DNA of 12,267 bases from Bacteroidales bacterium (GTDB lineage Bacteria > Bacteroidota > Bacteroidia > Bacteroidales > UBA932). The notes beneath the pieces are model-generated. The model was not told the DNA's origin and ran no database searches. It worked only from the letters and a program-made list of their open reading frames with translations. Location: positions 1 through 12,267 of the forward strand of contig JAGABD010000045.1 in assembly GCA_017614795.1 (NCBI GenBank). Reading direction: 5' to 3'. This document shows, piece after piece, positions 108-9,951 of this stretch. Position 1 is the stretch's first letter. Every line of letters begins with the position of its first letter. Both the position numbers and the translations under genes were made by a program.

Positions 108-178
108 GCAGGATTAGCACATCGGTAGTGCATTGGCTTCCCAAGCCAAGGAGGAGGGTTCGACTCCCTTATCCTGCT
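108..178 (+). tRNA. tRNA-Gly, anticodon CCC
   Basis: Full cloverleaf. The acceptor stem is 108-114 paired with 171-177, with T178 as discriminator and no encoded CCA. The D arm is GCAC (117-120) with GTGC (128-131). The anticodon stem is TTGGC (133-137) with GCCAA (145-149), around the loop TTCCCAA, so the anticodon CCC lies at 140-142 and reads GGG glycine codons. The variable loop is four bases, and the T arm is 154-158 paired with 166-170, closed by a G-U pair. It has its own promoter upstream and a terminator downstream, so it is probably a single-gene transcription unit. Confidence 0.95.
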
Positions 179-201
179 CTTCCCTGCGGTCGAGCAGGGC
201 A

Positions 202-536: not shown

Positions 537-1658
537 TTAAAAGCTGTAATCCGTGAGATTCTGGAGGCCGGGGAGACCGAAGTAGGACTCGACGATGGTG
601 CCCTTGAGGAATACCTGGCGACCGAGGAGAGAAGGATTGTCGACGAGATTCAGGGCATCGCGGATGTCGCCTTTTTGCAGTTGAACAGCAATGCAGGCGG
701 CCTTGTCTGTGCAGGTTGATTTTGCCGCTATCGCAATGTTGGTGCGGGAAGTGAACGGTGCCTCGAAACTGCAGGCCGAAGAAGTGAGGTCGCCGCCCAC
801 GATATACCCGTACACCCACACTCCCTTGTCGCCGACGTGAGCCTTTGCTTCGTCGATGCTGAATGCATCAGAGATGCCGGAACCGCCGTCCTGCCCATAG
901 CAGAAGCTCTCCTCAATCCAGATGCGGGTGGTGTCCACCTCCATCGAAATGCCGCCTCCCGCCGGATCGACCGGCCCGCCTGCCGCCGACAGGTTGATTG
1001 TAAGTATCTCCTGCTCGGAAAGGGCTCTTGTGAACAGCGACTCCTGCTTCCCGTTCCGTTCCAGTTGCAGGGTGATGCTACCAGGCTTGAAATACCCGAT
1101 TCTGCCTTCGGTGTAAGTGTACATCAGACGACCCTCGGCGGACTTGGCGTAAAGCACGGCATCGGGATAGGTCACGCGAAAATTGTAGTCCACCTTCATG
1201 CGAAGGCCGGCGTTTATCTGGCGGCAGTCAAGCCGCACCGAGATTTCCTTTCCGGCCTCCACTGCGACCACCTGCTCGTCACCGTACTGCGGGCAGTCGA
1301 AAAGCGGCGAACTGAATTCGCAGGACACCGCCCGAACGGTGTAGGAGCCGGGGTCGAGTTCGAACTTGCCGGGAGCCGCCCCGAAGCTTCCCTCGTACTC
1401 CTTGACGCCCTTGGAATTGGTGACCGTAAGCAGAAAAGAATTGGTGTCGGGATAGTCCGAAAGCGTACGCGCAGATACCTTGGAGGCCTGTTTGGGCACG
1501 AAACTTACCCTGACGATTCCCTTATTGGAAGATGAAGACGCGACGCCCTCGCGTGCGGAAGCGGACTTGCCGCCGTAACCGAGTTTGTCGCAGGAAGAAA
1601 TGGCCAGCGCTCCTATGAGAAGCAATGCGGCCCGGAAAAATGCAGTTTTTGTTTTCAT
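537..1658 (-). CDS. DUF4493 lipoprotein with C-terminal DUF6359-like domain
   Basis: A 373-residue protein with a lipoprotein signal: basic start, hydrophobic stretch about residues 7-20, then ISSC with the probable lipidated Cys at 23. A Ser-rich linker follows (about 34-46). Residues about 47-225 fit the Bacteroidota DUF4493 pattern: a FLLTVTNSKG-like strand, a PGSYTV turn, a FDCPQYGDEQ-like segment, then a beta-rich half. Residues 264-373 (VYGYIVGG, then SFEAPFTSRTNIAIA and a GLPGL turn) resemble DUF6359, a small OB-like beta domain of unknown function. It is the last gene of the minus-strand run, 98 bases past its neighbour, so it may be co-transcribed or use its own weak promoter. Likely an outer-membrane-anchored surface or periplasmic protein; ligand unknown. 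The domain calls come from remembered patterns. Confidence 0.85.
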   Translation of the reverse strand: MKTKTAFFRAALLLIGALAISSCDKLGYGGKSASAREGVASSSSNKGIVRVSFVPKQASKVSARTLSDYPDTNSFLLTVTNSKGVKEYEGSFGAAPGKFELDPGSYTVRAVSCEFSSPLFDCPQYGDEQVVAVEAGKEISVRLDCRQINAGLRMKVDYNFRVTYPDAVLYAKSAEGRLMYTYTEGRIGYFKPGSITLQLERNGKQESLFTRALSEQEILTINLSAAGGPVDPAGGGISMEVDTTRIWIEESFCYGQDGGSGISDAFSIDEAKAHVGDKGVWVYGYIVGGDLTSSACSFEAPFTSRTNIAIAAKSTCTDKAACIAVQLQKGDIRDALNLVDNPSLLGRQVFLKGTIVESYFGLPGLQNLTDYSF

Positions 1659-1672
1659 AAGCGTTTTTCCCG

Positions 1673-1680
1673 CAAAAATA
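1673..1680 (-). promoter_or_regulatory. Possible -7 element before the DUF4493 gene
   Basis: On the minus strand TATTTTTG fits TAnnTTTG and ends 14 bases before the start codon, inside an AT-rich 98-base gap. TTTG-like -33 candidates lie 15 and 24 bases upstream, neither at the preferred 19-21, so this is a weak call. It could allow the last gene to be expressed apart from the operon. Confidence 0.3.
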
Positions 1681-1756
1681 TGCTAAGGAAAAATGCAAAT
1701 CTTTCAAAAACCAATATTTCTTTTTTGATTCAAAAACAATTTTATGTTTTTTTATA

Positions 1757-2626
1757 TCACAACTTGAACCTGTAGCTCAGTCCGAGACCGAAGAACCAGA
1801 CATTGGAAAGCGTAAGGTAGGCATCCTGAGTCGGCTTTCCATACTTGTTGGCATTGCCTTTCAACTTGCCCGTCGAGGTGCAGTCGATGTCGAGGTCGAA
1901 ATTCCCCTCGACAATGCCGAAAATGTCCAGACTGTTCTTTTTGTCCATCTTCCAGGTTCCGCCGACATAGGTTCGCACCCGGTTGACGTAAATGTGATTG
2001 TACTGAGGGTCGTAGTTGGTCCACCACTGTTTGCGGTTGCCTTTTGCAGTCGTGTACCAGCCCCACTCGAAGCCGGCCGGATTCACAGCGTTAAGGGTGT
2101 TTCGCACTTCGACGCTGATGAACGGATCGAACTTGAACCGGGGGATATTGTATGATGCTTTCAGCCTGTGCTTCAGGTACAAGGCAGTCTGCGGAGCCTG
2201 ATATGTATTTATCTCATATGCCTTGTGGGTTGCCTGGAAAGTCTCGCGAAGCGACAGGGTAAGCCTGCCAAAATCGTGAGACAGCGTAATCCAGGCACTC
2301 CCCCGGTGGCGCGGCCTCCAGCCTTTGGTCTCGTGCTGAGTCTCCAGGAAGGAATACGACACCCCTGCTTTCAGCCATTTGGCAAACTTATAATCGGCTG
2401 ACAACTCGTTGTAGAACTTGTGAACGCCAACGTCGTTGTTGAACCTAAGTTCGCTTTCGTAGCCAAGGTGCAGCCTTCGCGCCAGCCTCCAGTCGAGATC
2501 CAGCGAAGTACGGGCACCAACCTGGAATCCGTTCTCGTGCGTCCATTCCAGCCCATACTCGTCGGCAGCTGCAGATAGGCAGGACACCACGAGCAAAAGC
2601 ACGGTTACAAGAAGCCTATCCTTCAT
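1757..2626 (-). CDS. DUF2490-type outer-membrane beta-barrel protein
   Basis: A 289-residue protein with a cleavable signal peptide (hydrophobic about 5-18, likely cut after the AAA at 19-21). The VVSC at 13-16 resembles a lipobox, but the rest reads as a barrel. The mature part is a series of alternating amphipathic strands rich in Tyr, Trp and Arg (for example LHLGYESELRF, ASYNIPRFKFDPFISVEVR, RVRTYVGGTW) separated by charged turns. It ends in an aromatic C-terminal strand, FFGLGLSYRFKL, typical of outer-membrane barrels. The pattern fits the DUF2490 family. The start overlaps the end of the DUF4956 gene by 11 bases, so the two are translationally linked. It probably sits in the outer membrane as a structural or export partner; no substrate can be read from the sequence. 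Confidence 0.82.
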   Translation of the reverse strand: MKDRLLVTVLLLVVSCLSAAADEYGLEWTHENGFQVGARTSLDLDWRLARRLHLGYESELRFNNDVGVHKFYNELSADYKFAKWLKAGVSYSFLETQHETKGWRPRHRGSAWITLSHDFGRLTLSLRETFQATHKAYEINTYQAPQTALYLKHRLKASYNIPRFKFDPFISVEVRNTLNAVNPAGFEWGWYTTAKGNRKQWWTNYDPQYNHIYVNRVRTYVGGTWKMDKKNSLDIFGIVEGNFDLDIDCTSTGKLKGNANKYGKPTQDAYLTLSNVWFFGLGLSYRFKL

Positions 2627-3341
2627 AATTCTTTATCTTGACCGCGCTGTCGATGCTGTTGTTTTCGCCCTTGCCGAGTTTGTAGAACACCTTGATATAG
2701 CAGGCGTCCCTGAGGAAATCCACGAAGCCTACTTCGATGGAATCAATCTTCAGCCCCAGCCTTGCCTCCAGGTCTGCCTTGAGTTCCTCGCGCTTCTCGG
2801 GCTGGATGTTGTCGATGCGGTCGTAGAACACCACCTTTGAAGAAGTATGCCTGATGTTCACACCCTCGCAAACGGCAATCAGGGCTATCACGAGGGCATT
2901 CGCAATCAGAAGTTCGCTCCACGACACCGACAGTGCTATGCTGTTCACCACCGACAGAGCAATGATGATGAAAAGATACGTCATTTCCCTCACAGGAATG
3001 GTCTCGGTTCGGTATCGTATCATCCCGAAAATGGCGAAGAGACCGAGGGTGAATCCTATCTGCATGCTCACGTTCTCCATCAGGTAAAGCAGGAGGAACA
3101 TCGAGGCGCTGAAGAGCATGAAGGTGAGGAAGTAATCGCGGCGGCCGCTCTTGCGGTAATAGAAAGCCCGCACCACTATGAAGGAAACCAGCAGGTTGAA
3201 TGCAAAACGCAGGAACAGCATCAGCAGCCCGTCTGCATACATTAGAGGAACGCCCAGGAATGTGGCACCCTTGGTTGCGGCATAGCCGAATTCTTCCGCG
3301 ATGGCCGGATCGAAATCCGGAAGTACTTGTAGAGGTATCAT
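2616..3341 (-). CDS. DUF4956 integral membrane protein
   Basis: A 241-residue protein with about five membrane segments (roughly 39-57, 71-88, 94-107, 120-139 and 144-158). A soluble C-terminal domain of about 80 residues follows (160-241), of mixed alpha/beta character and probably cytoplasmic. The stretch around GLFAIFGMIRYRTE (residues 100-113, with R109, R111 and E113) followed by the EMTYLF helix is the hallmark of DUF4956. The start codon overlaps the VTC gene's stop in an ATGA arrangement (4-base overlap), a sign of coupled translation and often of physical partnership. As I recall, DUF4956 genes often sit beside VTC-domain genes in Firmicutes and Bacteroidota. A reasonable inference is an inner-membrane anchor or conduit for the VTC enzyme. 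The biochemical function is unproven. Confidence 0.88.
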   Translation of the reverse strand: MIPLQVLPDFDPAIAEEFGYAATKGATFLGVPLMYADGLLMLFLRFAFNLLVSFIVVRAFYYRKSGRRDYFLTFMLFSASMFLLLYLMENVSMQIGFTLGLFAIFGMIRYRTETIPVREMTYLFIIIALSVVNSIALSVSWSELLIANALVIALIAVCEGVNIRHTSSKVVFYDRIDNIQPEKREELKADLEARLGLKIDSIEVGFVDFLRDACYIKVFYKLGKGENNSIDSAVKIKNYEG

Positions 3342-4105
3342 ATCAGTTTATTGTCTATTATCTTTTCGATTCTGCGAATTTTGGGAAGGAAGCGACCCTT
3401 GCGCACATTCCCCGTCAGGGCAGTGCCAATGGCATATTTGCTTACGCGCAATGGCCTGATACGGTGCTCGCGCAGCAGGTCCTTCGTGGCAGATGCAAGG
3501 TTTCCGTCCTGCTTCAGTTCGATGATGACGGCTGTGCCGAGACCGCCTTCGCGTCCGCTGCGGCGATTGGAAAAATGAAGATCCAGGTCGATGGTAAGCC
3601 GTTCGCTCATGGATGGGCTTACCAGAGTGATGCGGCGGAAGGAAGTGCTGCAGGCAGGAGAAAGGACCGAGCTGTCGAAGCCGGACTTCTCCAGTACGAA
3701 TGCGGCGTTATCCCCTGCAAAAGGAGAGTCGGGGCTGCACTCGCGGCGCTTTTTCTTCGTGCGTCCGTGGTTATTCTTGCGCTTGACCTCGAGATAGGAT
3801 ATTCCCGATTCGAGGTAGGTGCGCACCCTCACCTTGCGACGCGGAATACGCCGGTTGTGATGGTCGACATACATATTCAGTTCCGGGGTGTCGTAGTAGA
3901 GGGAATCGTAACGGCAGAGGCGCACCCCATCCAGCTCAAGAGCCCTGTAGCCACGCGCTGCGGCATCTTCCAGAAACCCCTCCAAACGATCCTGCGTGGT
4001 GACATACTTTGTGTCGATGCGGTTCATAAGCTTCACCGCATCCATCTCCGTAAGGGTGATGGGCGCGAAACGCGAAATCGCCGCACTTATGCCGCCGTCT
4101 GCCAT
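3338..4105 (-). CDS. VTC-domain protein, polyphosphate polymerase-like
   Basis: A 255-residue soluble protein without signal peptide, hence cytoplasmic. It shows the full bacterial VTC pattern of the triphosphate tunnel metalloenzyme fold: NRIDTKYV (R29, K33), a YDSLYYDTP strand (66-74), KVRVRTY (R93, R95), YLEVKRK (E106, K108), SERLTIDLDLHF (R169), IIELKQDG (E196, K198) and a late SKYAIG (K223). These match in order the basic tunnel residues and metal-binding acid of yeast Vtc4, which makes polyphosphate from ATP. The active site therefore looks intact. The family's length is usual (about 230-260). The start lies 3 bases past the upstream gene's stop, and the stop overlaps the DUF4956 start. 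The likely product is polyphosphate, or another nucleotide-dependent phosphoryl transfer; some TTM enzymes instead hydrolyse triphosphate. Confidence 0.9.
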   Translation of the reverse strand: MADGGISAAISRFAPITLTEMDAVKLMNRIDTKYVTTQDRLEGFLEDAAARGYRALELDGVRLCRYDSLYYDTPELNMYVDHHNRRIPRRKVRVRTYLESGISYLEVKRKNNHGRTKKKRRECSPDSPFAGDNAAFVLEKSGFDSSVLSPACSTSFRRITLVSPSMSERLTIDLDLHFSNRRSGREGGLGTAVIIELKQDGNLASATKDLLREHRIRPLRVSKYAIGTALTGNVRKGRFLPKIRRIEKIIDNKLI

Positions 4106-4108
4106 CTG

Positions 4109-4528
4109 CTATTCCGAAACGAGATATTCGTAGACCTTGATCTTGACGAGCTTGCCGGCAGGCGAATAGTTGTACTGTTTTGCCTTCCGATTCTTCTCGT
4201 CGTACTCGTATTTGCGGATGTAAACGGGCTTGTTGCGCCCGTCATAGCGCACTTCCTTTGCGATGCGGTCGTTGTCGCCGTATTCGTAGGTCTCACGCCA
4301 GACTACCCCGAACTGGTTGTACTCGGCTTCGGACACCTTGCGGCCCTGCGCGTCATAGACTGTTTCGTGGTCGAGCCATTTGGTTTTGCTCTTGGCGTCG
4401 GTGTTCCACTGACGCACGGTCAGGTTCTGCCTGCGGGCGAGTTTAAGCTTATAGAAATCGTCGCTTTCCTGAGCGAAGCTTGCAAACGTCGCCATTAGGA
4501 GCAATGCGCTGATTATCAGTTTTTTCAT
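4109..4528 (-). CDS. Small secreted protein with three YD-like repeats
   Basis: A 139-residue protein with a signal peptide (MKKLIISALLL, cleavage probably after FASFA at residue 19). After a basic segment come three tandem units of about 26 residues, each ending in an ETYEY/KYEY/VYEY motif and starting near a D-x-x-x-R turn: DAQGRK..., GDNDRI..., DEKNRK.... The pattern resembles the YD repeats of RHS-type proteins and other Tyr-rich beta-hairpin repeats, but is much shorter than an RHS protein. It probably folds as a small beta meander in the periplasm or outside the cell. It sits between the carbohydrate-binding lipoprotein and the VTC gene with 3-base gaps on each side, so it is a true operon member. 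I do not recognise a named family; function unknown. Confidence 0.8.
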   Translation of the reverse strand: MKKLIISALLLMATFASFAQESDDFYKLKLARRQNLTVRQWNTDAKSKTKWLDHETVYDAQGRKVSEAEYNQFGVVWRETYEYGDNDRIAKEVRYDGRNKPVYIRKYEYDEKNRKAKQYNYSPAGKLVKIKVYEYLVSE

Positions 4529-4531
4529 TCT

Positions 4532-6496
4532 CTATCGTTTGAGTGTTAAAGACGTTGAGGCGGAAGAACAAGTACCTCCGTAATAGTAGTATTTGCCCCA
4601 GTTTGACGTGGGATTCGAAGGCTTCGCACTCGTAGTATTTGCATACTTGTACGAGCCTCCGTTCGAAAATTCGGAAGATGCTATTATGGAATAACACTGG
4701 CTCAGGTCGCGCGGCACGTAGCAGCTCATCAGGACCTTCCCGCTTCCGTCGACCACGGTGAAGTATCCGGCCTTTACGCTGTAACTGGTCTTGTATGCGT
4801 AATGGCCGCTGCCGCCCATCGTGGCGGATGACGAGCCACCCTGGAGGCCACCCGATGAAAACACGGTGCCGCCGTTGTAGGTCAGACGGCTCATCGAGTC
4901 CGCATCGATGCCCTCCTCGGGCGAAGAAGTGGAGTGCGCCATAACGGTGCAGCCGCTGTTGAAAATTATGCTGCCGGTTTTGCCGTAGTTGCTGTCGATG
5001 GCGTCGTTGCCCGTGGAGTATGCGAAGACGTTGCCTCCGTTGAAAACAATCTGACCCGCTGCGTTCATGGCATCGTCATTGGCTTCCACCACTACATATC
5101 CGCCGTTGACGGCAAGAGAGTATTTGCTCTCGATGCCCTCGGCCTTGGACTTGTTGTCGCCTCCGCCGCCGGGAGTGGGGCCTCCTCCGCCACCGCCGGG
5201 AGGCGCAGTCCGCTCTATGATATTCGTCATCGAATTACCGCCGGTAGTGTAGACGTAAACCTTTCCGCCGTTGATTATGATGCCGCCGGCAGCAGTCCCC
5301 TTGGTTCCTCCCTTGATTCCTTTCGGTGAGCAGGTATAGGATCCGGAAGTGGATTTCGCCCCGGTAGTGGTCACATCTATCACCGGCCCTTCGCTGCCGG
5401 CATTCTTACCTATTATTATCTGGTTGGAAGCCCTGATTCCCTTGCCTCCGGCACCCGTGCTCCTGCAGGTGATTTCTCCGCCGTAGAGATATGCGTCGTG
5501 GTCCGCCTTGATGCAGGCGCAGCCGGTAAGGTCGCCATCCTCCACGACAGTGCCGCCGCTGGTACTGAGATTCAGGGTGCCGCCGTTGACAATCACGTCG
5601 TGTTCGCTCTTGATCGCCTTGGAAGCGGTGCCCGCGACCGAGATGTTCAGAGTGCCGCCGTCAATGGAAATGTCGCCAATTCCGGCAAGATCGGTCTTTA
5701 TGCCGTGGCCCTTCGCGCCGCTGGTCTTGATGGTGACGTTGCCCGAGCTCATCATAAAGGGGCCCTCGTCCACCTGAATGCCTTCGCCGGTGGAATTGAT
5801 GTTGATTATGCCGCCGGACACAAGGAGGGAATCGTTGGCGTGCAGGCCGTCCGTCGCCGCTTCCTCAACCGTGACCGTACCGCCTTCCACGCTTATGAAG
5901 TCATCGCTCGCAATTGCGTGCTTGGTACGCCCCGCCACCGTAAGACTGCCGCTGCCGCTGAACACCAGGCCACCTTCGCTGAAGAGCGTACCCTTGCAGT
6001 CCTCGGTTTCGACGAGACCGAGCGTGTATGCCCCGGTGCTGCTCTTCGCATCGGTGATGCTGTTGTTGCCGCCCAAAATGACGAAACATCGCTTCTTGCA
6101 CTGGATATTGATGGCGGCATTCTTCCCGGAAGTGATGCTGACGCCGTTCAAATTGAGGGTGAACTTGTTGGCATTGTAGATTTTCAGTGCTCCGGCGCTT
6201 GTGCTTCCGGAAACAGAAATCGTCAGATTCTTGACCGTGGTTGTGTCGTCACCCAGGACGACATACGCTCCGTCTATCGAAAACGGCCAGCCGATGGCGG
6301 CGGCGCCGCTGACCGAGGCCGAAGCGCCATTGAAAACGACGGAAATCTCCCCGTCCGCATCAAGGAATGTGGTGACTTCAGTCGATGTCGTGTCCGTCCA
6401 GTCTGTCACGGCCGTGACGCCGTCCATCTTGCGGCATCCCCATTCCGGAGCCAGGATTATTGCAAGCAGAAATATAATCGGCAACAACCTTTTCAT
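4532..6496 (-). CDS. Beta-helix carbohydrate-binding lipoprotein, Cthe_2159/DUF4353 type
   Basis: A 654-residue exported protein. The start at 6496 (MKRLLPIIFLL) is preferred over an in-frame ATG at 6547, because only it gives a normal signal sequence and because a TAnnTTTG promoter box lies between the two. Cys21 follows EWG, a non-canonical lipobox; lipidation is likely but not certain. The body consists of short repeats of the type VIVNGGTLNLSTSG and LLVSGGIININSTG, with recurrent D/N-G-G turns and KAIKSEHD/KGIRASNQ-type units, as in right-handed parallel beta-helices. The layout fits the calcium- and polysaccharide-binding Cthe_2159 family. A Gly/Pro-rich stretch (about 428-446) interrupts the helix. 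A Ser-rich C-terminal region of about 100 residues follows (KTSYSVKAGYFTVVDGSGK onwards). First gene of the operon; likely at the cell surface. Confidence 0.85.
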   Translation of the reverse strand: MKRLLPIIFLLAIILAPEWGCRKMDGVTAVTDWTDTTSTEVTTFLDADGEISVVFNGASASVSGAAAIGWPFSIDGAYVVLGDDTTTVKNLTISVSGSTSAGALKIYNANKFTLNLNGVSITSGKNAAINIQCKKRCFVILGGNNSITDAKSSTGAYTLGLVETEDCKGTLFSEGGLVFSGSGSLTVAGRTKHAIASDDFISVEGGTVTVEEAATDGLHANDSLLVSGGIININSTGEGIQVDEGPFMMSSGNVTIKTSGAKGHGIKTDLAGIGDISIDGGTLNISVAGTASKAIKSEHDVIVNGGTLNLSTSGGTVVEDGDLTGCACIKADHDAYLYGGEITCRSTGAGGKGIRASNQIIIGKNAGSEGPVIDVTTTGAKSTSGSYTCSPKGIKGGTKGTAAGGIIINGGKVYVYTTGGNSMTNIIERTAPPGGGGGGPTPGGGGDNKSKAEGIESKYSLAVNGGYVVVEANDDAMNAAGQIVFNGGNVFAYSTGNDAIDSNYGKTGSIIFNSGCTVMAHSTSSPEEGIDADSMSRLTYNGGTVFSSGGLQGGSSSATMGGSGHYAYKTSYSVKAGYFTVVDGSGKVLMSCYVPRDLSQCYSIIASSEFSNGGSYKYANTTSAKPSNPTSNWGKYYYYGGTCSSASTSLTLKR

Positions 6497-6699: not shown

Positions 6700-6707
6700 T
6701 ATCTTTG
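6700..6707 (+). promoter_or_regulatory. -7 element of the M16 peptidase gene
   Basis: TATCTTTG fits TAnnTTTG and ends 21 bases before the ATG at 6729. A TTTG lies only 14 bases upstream (6682-6685), so the -33 element is poor, although a T-rich run covers the expected place. The leader is A-rich, as is common for Bacteroidota start sites, with no Shine-Dalgarno sequence. Confidence 0.55.
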
Positions 6708-6728
6708 CAAAGCTTAAAGAAAAACGAT

Positions 6729-9632
6729 ATGAAGAAACTTATCCGAATTATTATTGCCGCAGTCGCGGCGATTGTCGCCCTGGGCGGGTGCCGCAGTTAC
6801 GAAAAAGTGGCCGGAGACCCCCTCAAGGCAAAGATCTACACCCTCGACAACGGGCTCAAGGTCTATATGACCGTCAACAAGGAAGAACCCCGCATCCAAA
6901 CTTATATCGCGGTGCGCGTCGGAGGCAAGAACGACCCCAAGGAGACCACCGGCCTCGCCCATTATTTCGAGCATCTTATGTTCAAGGGCAGCGAGAGTTT
7001 CGGCACGCAGGACTATGCCGCCGAGAAGCCCTATCTCGATGAGATCGAAGCCCTCTACGAAGAGTATCGCGGCATTACGGACCCGGCCGCCCGCAAGGCG
7101 CATTACCACAAGATCGACTCCGTGAGCCAGCTCGCGTCGCAGATCGCCATACCCAACGAGTACGACAAGATGATGAGCATGATCGGCGCCCGCGGCACCA
7201 ACGCCTGGACCTCGTATGACGAGACGGTATACACAGAGGACATCCCCTCCAACCAGATCGAGAACTGGGCGAAGATCCAATCGGACCGCTTCAAGCACAA
7301 TGTGATCCGCGGATTCCACACCGAGCTCGAGGCCGTGTACGAGGAATACAACCGCAGCCTTACCAGCGACAGCCGCAAGCTCTGGGAGACGCTTTTCGCA
7401 AAGCTCTTCCCCCACCATCCTTACGGCACCCAGACCGTGCTCGGCACCCAGGAGCAGCTGAAGAACCCCTCCATCGTCAATATCAAGCGCACCTTCAACA
7501 CCTACTACCGTCCCAACAACGTGGCGATCTGCCTTTCCGGCGATTTCAACCCCGGCGAGATGGTGAAGGTCATCGAGAAGTACTTCGGCGACTGGGAGCC
7601 CAATCCCGAGCTGCCCGAATTCAAATATGAAGAGGAAGAGCCCTTCACCGAGCCCGTCAAGGCCGAAGTTGTGGGACTCGAAGCCGAAATGGCCGCCCTC
7701 GGATGGAGGTTCCCCGGCCAGCGCGACGTGCAGACCACCGCGGTTGCCGAAATTGCCGGAGCCATCCTCACCAACGGACAGGCCGGCCTGGTGGACCTCG
7801 ACATCAACCAGAAGCAGAAGGCCATGTACATGTACGCCGGCGTCGAATCGATGCCCGACTACGGATGCTTCCTCGCTCTCGGAATGCCCAAGCAGGGACA
7901 GACACTCGACGAGATCCGCGACCTCGCCCTCGGTGAAATCGCGAAACTCCGCGAAGGCGACTTCCCCGAAAGCCTCATCCCCGCCACCATCAACAACATC
8001 CGCCTGAACAAGATGAAGGAACTGGAGAGCAACAGGGCCCGCGCCCACGCATTTGTGAACGCCTTCATCGCCGGAGTGGACTGGAAGGACGCCGCCCTCG
8101 ACATCGAGCGCTACAGCAAAGTGACCAAGGACGACATCGTGGCCTTCGCCAACAAGTATCTGGGAGACGACAACTACGCCATAGTGTACAAGCGCCAGGG
8201 CGTGGATCCCGACCAAAAGAAGATAGAGGCCCCCGAAATCACCCCCATCGCCACCAACCGCGACTGCAAGAGCGCTTTCCTGCAGGAGATCGAGGCGTCC
8301 GAGGTGAAGCCCATCAAGCCAGTCTTCGTGGATTTCGGCAAGGATATGAGCAAGAGCACCCTCTGCGAAGGTGTCGGCCTTCTCTACAAGAAGAACGAAA
8401 TCAACGGCATCGGCAACCTCCAGTTCATATTCAACGAAGGATATGAGGACGATCCCGCGATCAAGGCGGCGTTCGAATACCTGGGATACCTCGGCACTCC
8501 CGATATGAGCGCCGAACAGATTGCCACCAGGCTCTATGAACTCGGCTGCGACTTCAGTTTCAACCCCGGTTCGCATATGACCACCATCTCCGTCAGCGGA
8601 CTCGACGAGAACCTGTTCGAGGCCCTCGGCGTCGTGGAGAAGCTCATCTACGAGGGACAGCCCGACGAGGACATCCTCGCCAACCTCAAGCTCGACATCT
8701 TCAAGAGCCGCGTGGACGCCAAGGCCAGCCAGCAGAGCTGCTTCAGGGCACTCAGGCAGTACCTGTTCTACGGTCCCGAATTCATCAGGAAGAGCAACCT
8801 CGACAACGCGGCCATAAGCGCCCTCACTTCCGAAGTCCTGCTCGCCAAGTTTCGCGAACTCGCGGGCAAGGGTCACGAGGTCCTCTATTACGGCCCTACT
8901 TCAGAAGCTAAGGTGAAGGAAGCCCTCAAGGCGGGCCACAAGGTAGGAGAGAATCCCGAGGTCCTGCCCGAGCGTTTCACCGCCAATGTGCGCACCGAGA
9001 AGACCGAGGTGATCCTCGCCCCCTACGAGTCCAAGCAGTTCTACTATGTGCAGTACTCCGACCGCGGCGAGAAGTTCGACGCGTCGCAGCAGGCTTCCGT
9101 CGATATGTACAACGAGTACTTCGGCGGCGGAATGAACAGCATAGTCTTCCAGGAGATGCGCGAAGCCCGAGGCCTCGCCTACTCCGCCTACGCCTACCTC
9201 GACAGCCCCGACAACCTTGAGAACGACTACAGTTTCTTCGCCTTCATCGGTTCGCAGAACGACAAGCTCGCCAAGGCGGTCGAAGGATTCGACGAAATCA
9301 TCAACAGGATGCCCGAATCGCAGCCCGCGTTCGACATCGCGAAGAAGGGAATCCTTTCGAGGATGCGCACCGAGCGCGTCACCGGAATTGCGGTTCTCCT
9401 CAAATACCGCGAGTGCCGCAGGCTCGGCCTCGACAAGCCCCTCGACGAAGCCGTGTTCAAAGCCATCCAGGATATGACTCTCGAGGATGTCCTCGCCACC
9501 CAGAAGAAGTGGATTGCCGACCGTTCCTACGTCTATGCGATCCTCGGCGACGAATCCGACCTCGATGGCGCCTTCCTGAAGACTCTCGGCCCCGTGCGCC
9601 ACGTAAGTCTCGAAGAGATTTTCGGTTACTAG
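6729..9632 (+). CDS. M16 family zinc metallopeptidase lipoprotein, two-domain
   Basis: A 967-residue exported peptidase of the insulinase/pitrilysin (M16) family. It begins with a lipoprotein signal ending in LGGC (Cys21). The inverted zinc motif HYFEH lies at residues 78-82. An insertion of about 50 residues follows, and the third zinc ligand is probably E205 in ELEAVYEEY (199-207). The C-terminal half repeats the M16 fold without a zinc motif but keeps the substrate-binding FGGGM (798-802) and REARGLAY (811-818) segments, so the single chain should form the usual closed two-half chamber. Such enzymes degrade peptides in the periplasm or at the outer membrane. The start at 6729 is chosen because it gives the signal peptide and follows the promoter box. 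Monocistronic: terminator downstream, divergent from the minus-strand operon. Confidence 0.95.
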   Translation: MKKLIRIIIAAVAAIVALGGCRSYEKVAGDPLKAKIYTLDNGLKVYMTVNKEEPRIQTYIAVRVGGKNDPKETTGLAHYFEHLMFKGSESFGTQDYAAEKPYLDEIEALYEEYRGITDPAARKAHYHKIDSVSQLASQIAIPNEYDKMMSMIGARGTNAWTSYDETVYTEDIPSNQIENWAKIQSDRFKHNVIRGFHTELEAVYEEYNRSLTSDSRKLWETLFAKLFPHHPYGTQTVLGTQEQLKNPSIVNIKRTFNTYYRPNNVAICLSGDFNPGEMVKVIEKYFGDWEPNPELPEFKYEEEEPFTEPVKAEVVGLEAEMAALGWRFPGQRDVQTTAVAEIAGAILTNGQAGLVDLDINQKQKAMYMYAGVESMPDYGCFLALGMPKQGQTLDEIRDLALGEIAKLREGDFPESLIPATINNIRLNKMKELESNRARAHAFVNAFIAGVDWKDAALDIERYSKVTKDDIVAFANKYLGDDNYAIVYKRQGVDPDQKKIEAPEITPIATNRDCKSAFLQEIEASEVKPIKPVFVDFGKDMSKSTLCEGVGLLYKKNEINGIGNLQFIFNEGYEDDPAIKAAFEYLGYLGTPDMSAEQIATRLYELGCDFSFNPGSHMTTISVSGLDENLFEALGVVEKLIYEGQPDEDILANLKLDIFKSRVDAKASQQSCFRALRQYLFYGPEFIRKSNLDNAAISALTSEVLLAKFRELAGKGHEVLYYGPTSEAKVKEALKAGHKVGENPEVLPERFTANVRTEKTEVILAPYESKQFYYVQYSDRGEKFDASQQASVDMYNEYFGGGMNSIVFQEMREARGLAYSAYAYLDSPDNLENDYSFFAFIGSQNDKLAKAVEGFDEIINRMPESQPAFDIAKKGILSRMRTERVTGIAVLLKYRECRRLGLDKPLDEAVFKAIQDMTLEDVLATQKKWIADRSYVYAILGDESDLDGAFLKTLGPVRHVSLEEIFGY

Positions 9633-9754: not shown

Positions 9755-9879
9755 GCAAAATAATCAGTTGTCCGAAGGCTTGCAAGAAAAGCAAAAAAAC
9801 AATTTGAAAGTTTTTCTGTTTCTTTAATTTTTAACTTTTTCCTATAGCCTTAAAACTGTTTCTTATATCGATTTTTTCG

Positions 9880-9951
9880 TACCCCCGAGGCGAATCGAAC
9901 GCCTATCGTCGGAACCGGAATCCGAAATTCTATCCATTAAACTACAGGGGC
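9880..9951 (-). tRNA. tRNA-Arg, anticodon CCG
   Basis: Minus-strand cloverleaf of 72 bases. The acceptor strand GCCCCTG (9951-9945) pairs with CGGGGGT (9887-9881) through one G-U and one U-G pair; the discriminator is A (9880). The anticodon stem TCGGA/TCCGA surrounds the loop TTCCGGT, giving anticodon CCG, which reads CGG arginine codons. The T arm is AGGCG, TTCGATT, CGCCT. No CCA is encoded. It is transcribed divergently from fabD. Confidence 0.94.

Follow-up and report, generated by a model that had tools for sequence, protein, structure and literature searches.

Genes of the locus

The window analyzed here is the whole stretch of 12,267 nucleotides of contig JAGABD010000045.1 from a Bacteroidales bacterium, and between positions 537 and 6496 it holds a run of genes that includes a VTC-domain enzyme and a DUF4956 membrane protein. 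An earlier, sequence-only reading described six minus-strand genes, five of them tightly coupled, and the list of open reading frames (ORFs) together with Pfam bore this out, spacing included. The first gene of the run (4532-6496, minus strand, as are all that follow) encodes a Cthe_2159-type right-handed beta-helix of 654 aa, a probable lipoprotein (PF14262, E 3e-44). The second (4109-4528) encodes a small secreted YD/RHS-like repeat protein of 139 aa, hereafter YD, that matched RHS_repeat below the cut-off (18.5 vs 22 bits). Next come a VTC-domain triphosphate tunnel enzyme of 255 aa, a candidate polyphosphate polymerase (3338-4105; PF09359, 1e-26), a DUF4956 inner-membrane protein with five transmembrane (TM) helices and a soluble C-terminal domain, a candidate translocator (2616-3341; PF16316, 1e-50), and a DUF2490 outer-membrane barrel candidate of 289 aa (1757-2626; PF10677, 3e-12). 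Along the run there are gaps of 3 and 3 bases and overlaps of 4 (between the VTC and DUF4956 ORFs) and 11 bases, then a gap of 98 bases before the gene of a DUF4493 and DUF6359 lipoprotein (537-1658; PF14900, 5e-21; PF19886, 4e-32), a neighbor outside the conserved system described below. Signal peptides and lipoprotein cysteines were assigned by eye on the translations; judged in this way, the VTC protein showed no signal peptide.

Conservation of the gene set

Of 491 loci ranked by DUF4956 similarity, the top 80 were taken as related loci, which with the window gave 81 loci that lean to one clade. The best-matching named loci were from uncultured Alistipes, Rikenellaceae and other Bacteroidales, and DUF4956 identity in the 80 kept was 49-63%, which suggests an uncultured Bacteroidales source for the window. 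Genes were counted with profiles built from the window proteins, and loci with genes truncated by contig ends were retained. The trio YD-VTC-DUF4956 was found in 81/81 loci (window counted) and DUF2490 in 76/81. Cthe_2159 was found in 9/81 loci and the DUF4493 gene only in the window (1/81), with 73/81 loci extending at least 3 kb past DUF4956 on that side. A spacing of at most 50 bases, or an overlap, separated YD from VTC in 75/81 loci, VTC from DUF4956 in 65/81 and DUF4956 from DUF2490 in 57/76 (mechanical starts, so spacings are approximate). The coupling of these genes exceeds chance, and the conserved core is four genes, YD, VTC, DUF4956 and DUF2490, with Cthe_2159 as an optional partner. 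The proposal that all six genes form a single system was ruled out by the finding of the DUF4493 gene in the window alone among the 81 loci and by the 98-base gap in front of it. The co-occurrence expected by the sequence-only reading held for the core genes, was occasional for Cthe_2159 and was not seen for the DUF4493 gene.

Because the 81 loci are close kin, 148 Bacteroidota genomes and 14 control genomes were also scanned by Pfam. In the Bacteroidota genomes VTC was matched 34 times, in 29 genomes, and for 31 of these matches a same-strand DUF4956 gene lay at most 400 bases away. Two of the remaining matches had DUF4956 at 2.7-2.9 kb and one was a fragment. DUF4956 also occurred without VTC within 3.5 kb (16/49 matches). 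Among the controls VTC and DUF4956 were detected together in the same three genomes, those of Bacteroides ihuae, Corynebacterium glutamicum and Methanosarcina acetivorans. That VTC and DUF4956 genes recur as a pair, as had been claimed, is supported.

Several variants of the module and its surroundings were seen. Parabacteroides sp. PF5-9 (G001, the genome of locus L061) carries two module copies (L142 and L081/L127), one with YD and the other ordered Cthe_2159-VTC-DUF4956-DUF2490 with YD undetected. One 399-aa protein (P0200) combines a YD-like part with VTC in a single reading frame; the middle of this protein appears frame-shifted, probably by an assembly error. Forty selected neighbor proteins were scanned with Pfam. 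A family of about 1840 aa lies on the same strand within 9 kb in 15/81 loci, mostly downstream of DUF2490 (L038, L040-L042, L045, L046 and others), and the member scanned is a bacterial alpha-2-macroglobulin; a 771-aa family, with a scanned member of the penicillin-binding protein 1C type, is also near in 7 of those loci. Upstream of YD a family of about 239 aa was found in 30/81 loci (e.g., L064:7767-8516), its scanned member having CarboxypepD_reg and transthyretin-like matches, nearly all below cut-off.

The VTC enzyme

The window VTC was predicted with high confidence to have the fold of the yeast Vtc4 tunnel domain, and among triphosphate-tunnel folds the nearest were VTC tunnel domains. 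The alignment used for the searches held 19 of the 120 listed VTC proteins and the window. Alone, it gave one match to solved structures, a cell-death protein at E 0.003 that was taken as chance; Vtc4 was found once sequences of the second branch described below had joined the VTC profiles. In a HMMER alignment Vtc4 residues K200, K281, K294, R361 and R373, which we take to be further basic tunnel residues, are identical in the window (K33, K108, K118, R158 and R169), as are the published key residues R264, R266, E426 and K458 (R93, R95, E196 and K223), the latter being those named in PMC9911596 and PMC4641920. The tunnel polyphosphatases ygiF and TTM3 have a patch of acidic residues that serves a second metal (PMC4641920). 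Aligned through Vtc4, the place of the EXEXK motif of that patch reads R29-I-D31-T-K33 in the window VTC, and the place of AtTTM3 Glu171 would be K198; D31 is still acidic, and the mapping covers three of the four patch places, Glu90 excluded. No SPX domain was found, VTC being the sole Pfam match of the 255-aa protein up to E 0.1. The predicted fold and the retained key residues agree with the suggestion that this enzyme may make polyphosphate (polyP), which, judged from sequence, is its putative product. A role for VTC as a replacement of PPK1 was ruled out, as PPK1 was no commoner with VTC (27/29 VTC genomes vs 108/119 others).

The DUF4956 membrane protein

The predicted DUF4956 model has five long helices and a mixed C-terminal domain at moderate confidence (pLDDT 68), and hydropathy gave hydrophobic segments roughly consistent with five passes. 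The five membrane segments noted earlier are thereby supported. By the positive-inside rule, an N-out, C-in orientation is suggested by the acidic start of the protein and by a basic loop, YYRKSGRRD, that follows TM1. Given this orientation the segment IRYRTETIPVRE (2985-3020, minus strand; codons 108-119 of the DUF4956 gene) falls where TM3 is predicted to reach the cytoplasm. The two outer places of its R-x-R motif were basic in 28/28 sequences, which came from both branches, Gram-positives and VTC-less loci; a separate DUF4956 alignment comprised 18 of the 120 listed proteins and the window. In yeast a belt of basic residues guides the chain from the Vtc4 tunnel to the pore (PMC9911596). 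Structure searches found no fold relative for DUF4956, and Pfam gave PF16316, PF12553 below cut-off and nothing else up to E 0.1, with no match to a Vtc1-type membrane domain. We infer that DUF4956 may act as a channel.

Two branches with different outer-membrane partners

In a VTC tree of 35 rows the window branch was split off at 100/100, while the unity of the sister branch was weakly supported (71/84). Survey loci of the window branch had DUF2490 in 10 of 13 cases, three of them with DUF2490 before VTC, and no HlyD adaptor was found within 1.5 kb in the 12 checked. Neither an HlyD adaptor nor OEP was matched by Pfam in the six genes of the window. In the sister branch an HlyD-type adaptor lay directly beside VTC or DUF4956 in 18/18 survey loci checked, a count made with adaptor profiles partly built from, and hence not independent of, those loci, and also in L160, where the gene order is CotH, DUF4956, HlyD, OEP (TolC-like), VTC. 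Two of the 21 sister-branch VTC matches were left out of this count (G026:C20 and a 54-position fragment, G029:C160). No DUF2490 match was found within 1.5 kb in the sister-branch loci. The adaptors are of two kinds. The first gave clear Pfam HlyD matches (L154, L160) and its profile detected 5/18 loci; the second, of 358 aa, was commoner (13/18), with Pfam HlyD support above cut-off in L152, below it in L155 and none in four others. The profile of the 358-aa kind matched that of the first with an hhalign probability of 93.8.

Of six matching plasmid records five were fetched, all from Gram-positive hosts (Planococcus, Pseudobutyrivibrio, Nonomuraea, Paenibacillus and Acetoanaerobium). VTC adjoined DUF4956 in 5/5 and CotH was near the pair in 3/5; no adaptor was found, with profiles derived from Bacteroidota that may miss distant kin. 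Among the loci examined the inner-membrane pair is common to all, and an outer-membrane partner is added only where an outer membrane exists. Of the indirect evidence for export, this swap of partners by branch and membrane type is the strongest. The earlier suggestion that the barrel and lipoproteins place the product or a linked glycan at the surface is supported insofar as both branches repeatedly carry partners that could cross the outer membrane (DUF2490 in the window branch and HlyD, alone or with OEP, in the sister branch), but the DUF4493 protein is a neighbor only and Cthe_2159 is optional.

HlyD also adjoined DUF4956 in 4/7 of the VTC-less loci looked at, out of 16 such matches (L101, L105, L106 and L107, all with DUF4956 and a HlyD-type gene and no VTC nearby). 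The DUF4956 protein of such pairs may act on other substrates.

Charge of the predicted exported partners

The mature parts of the window YD and DUF2490 proteins are basic (pI 9.2 and 9.4). Over 81 copies each, with the first 20 residues excluded, the median pI was 9.0 for YD and 9.3 for DUF2490, and 86% and 95% of the copies, respectively, had a pI above 8. Only 10/50 and 14/82 size-matched exported-like ORFs from the same loci did so, as selected by a crude filter that was itself passed by 65/81 YD and 69/81 DUF2490 copies. Cthe_2159 was found to be acidic (median pI 4.4, 9 copies). The basic charge of YD and DUF2490 suits a polyanion in transit but may be a single inherited trait of each family.

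In the genomes of 40 of the 80 loci, Cthe_2159 was detected by Pfam in 23, and in 7 of the 40 it lay within 6 kb of DUF4956.

CotH kinases in VTC genomes

CotH was found in 29/29 VTC genomes vs 31/119 others (Fisher 2e-14, uncorrected for kinship). The same 40 window-class genomes had CotH in 39 cases, the exception being G186, which carries DUF4956 locus L076. Bacteroides ihuae has VTC, DUF4956, Cthe_2159 and DUF2490, and CotH was not detected there by Pfam; none of the six genes of the window had a CotH match either. In the L141 genome 563 bases separate CotH from VTC, and in L154, L155 and L160 the two genes share a run; a Por secretion tail was seen on the CotH proteins of L141, L154 and L155. 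These cases of CotH near VTC are lower bounds. The DUF2490 and CotH rows compared with VTC were those on contigs with VTC matches, picked by eye.

Flanking features

The operon and its neighbor are flanked by tRNA-Gly(CCC) (108-179, plus strand) and tRNA-Arg(CCG) (9879-9951, minus strand). About 200 bases from the operon's 5' end begins a divergent gene for an M16-like peptidase (6705-9632, plus strand), with sub-threshold matches to the YfmF/YfmH and pitrilysin models. A consensus pattern for Bacteroidota-type promoters matched at 51-80 and 66-97 and nowhere ahead of the operon.

A proposed model for export and its alternatives

The interpretation offered from the sequence alone is supported in part. 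We propose, with a probability of about 0.45, that the conserved core is a line from cytoplasm to exterior for a phosphate polymer, most likely inorganic polyP. VTC, a Vtc4-type tunnel enzyme, would use ATP to build the chain on the cytoplasmic side of the inner membrane, held there by the cytoplasmic C-terminal domain of DUF4956. DUF4956 would take the anionic chain past the invariant basic-x-basic motif, into and across the inner membrane, with chain growth driving transit as in yeast. In the window branch, polymer that reaches the periplasm would be taken over by two basic proteins, YD and the DUF2490 barrel, which would hand it on at the outer membrane or anchor it there. In the sister branch this role would fall to an HlyD-type adaptor, joined in at least one locus by a TolC-type channel, and bacteria with a single membrane would require neither set. 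Where present, the Cthe_2159 beta-helix may retain at the cell surface either the polymer or a glycan bridged by cations.

A rather unlikely alternative is that VTC-DUF4956 supplies phosphate or short chains that decorate an exopolysaccharide, with Cthe_2159 binding the glycan. CotH, polyP polymerase and DUF4956 genes adjoin pel exopolysaccharide genes in Gram-positives (PMC7112168), a glycosyltransferase gene follows VTC-DUF4956-CotH two genes on in Planococcus, and in Pseudobutyrivibrio CotH-VTC-DUF4956 lies amid glycosyl-, acyl- and pyruvyl-transferase genes. Cellulose and polygalacturonic acid are known ligands of Cthe_2159 proteins (PMC6712302), and near window-class operons we found a GH2 family in 6/81 loci, GH64 in L031 and a secreted carbohydrate-binding protein in L054. 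It is these neighbors and the Gram-positive context that keep glycan modification alive. However, Pfam found no glycosyltransferase in the window operon, the selected scanned neighbors of window-class loci were of varied functions and included no exopolysaccharide glycosyltransferase, and few loci carry Cthe_2159. It is distinctly unlikely that the traffic runs inward, for scavenging or sensing, with VTC as a tunnel phosphatase or regulator and with incoming phosphate, polyP or metal carried or sensed by DUF4956. This would fit the row for BT3498-99 (DUF4956 and DUF2490) in an iron stimulon table, where the meaning of the sign is not established (PMC10434189), the HlyD-DUF4956 pairs without VTC, the lack of a known fold match for DUF4956 and the acid kept at D31. 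Two Glu places of the tunnel phosphatases would nevertheless be basic here, judged by way of the Vtc4 alignment (R29 and K198; PMC4641920). The partners also speak against uptake or sensing. HlyD and OEP are typical of export. It is highly improbable that the genes are a surface-adhesion run with shared expression and no common product: the Cthe_2159 and DUF4493 genes are variable, and DUF2490 and CotH also occur elsewhere in the genomes, but YD, VTC and DUF4956 stay together in all 81 loci at mostly short spacing, and VTC and DUF4956 are paired in the five Gram-positive plasmid records.

The association with CotH raises a further idea, a long shot, that secreted CotH-type kinases, working where ATP is scarce, take their phosphoryl groups from exported polyP. 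It is motivated by the question, described as unanswered, of where CotH obtains its ATP in the spore coat (PMC7821199), and it would account for CotH in all 29 VTC genomes of the survey and for Por-tailed CotH proteins encoded near VTC. It is weakened by the lack of CotH in the window operon, by B. ihuae, which has the module without CotH, by G186, and by the 31 VTC-less genomes with CotH; known CotH moreover uses ATP in vitro (PMC7821199). We give little credence to the broadest version of the export model, in which VTC-DUF4956 is a dedicated bacterial polyP secretion machine, the exported chain serves CotH in many hosts so that surface proteins are phosphorylated without ATP, and diderms linked the machine to their outer membrane on two or more occasions, one using HlyD (accompanied in one locus by a TolC-type OEP) and another using YD with DUF2490.

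Were polyP export correct, a candidate machine would be identified for polyphosphate on or outside bacterial cells, and DUF4956, a family of unknown function in Bacteroidota, Gram-positives and one archaeal control genome, would gain a testable role. The eukaryotic VTC would be connected to a bacterial synthase-translocase pair, and the unexplained company of CotH kinases would become a specific biochemical question.

Comparison with known systems

The sequence-only reading knew of no described bacterial system of this composition. This holds for the outer-membrane partners, for which we found no description, but CotH-VTC-DUF4956 sets have been printed for Gram-positives. CotH, polyP polymerase, DUF4956 and DUF4832 lie beside Gram-positive pel clusters in PMC7112168, where a role is suggested for CotH alone, and Clostridium perfringens NELoc-2 contains a run of VTC, 'tubulin' and CotH (PMC2879425). 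By their size (222-226 aa) and order the 'tubulin' genes are probably DUF4956. A table of the iron stimulon lists BT3498-99 of Bacteroides thetaiotaomicron, the row giving -7.6 and 0.175 (PMC10434189). The relevant passages of these three papers assign no function to VTC-DUF4956. Searches of the open-access literature, bioRxiv outside their scope, yielded no export route for polyP made by bacterial VTC, no paper that joins VTC, CotH, polyphosphate and operon, and none that joins any three of polyphosphate, HlyD, DUF4956 and VTC; an ABC-type 'polyP export system' is annotated in Lacticaseibacillus (PMC11604172). The window resembles the Gram-positive sets in having VTC together with DUF4956, and differs in having YD, DUF2490 and Cthe_2159 in addition and neither CotH nor pel.

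The sister branch resembles HlyD/TolC tripartite export in that VTC-DUF4956 is accompanied by an HlyD-type adaptor, and in L160 also by OEP, whereas Pfam found no HlyD, OEP or ABC, RND or MFS pump in the window run; since a pump is lacking there, the energy would come from polymerization. E. coli ygiF and plant TTM3 have an acidic patch of four places, at three of which the window VTC would have R29, K198 and D31. The yeast VTC complex (Vtc1/Vtc3/Vtc4), whose Vtc1-type membrane domain is small, shares with the window a tunnel domain of the Vtc4 type, the published key residues included. In both, a polymerase is paired with a membrane part bearing conserved basic residues (PMC9911596). The window differs from the yeast complex in lacking SPX, in having DUF4956, with five TM helices and a soluble domain, as its membrane part, and in its putative target, which would be the cell envelope, with outer-membrane partners added, rather than the vacuole.

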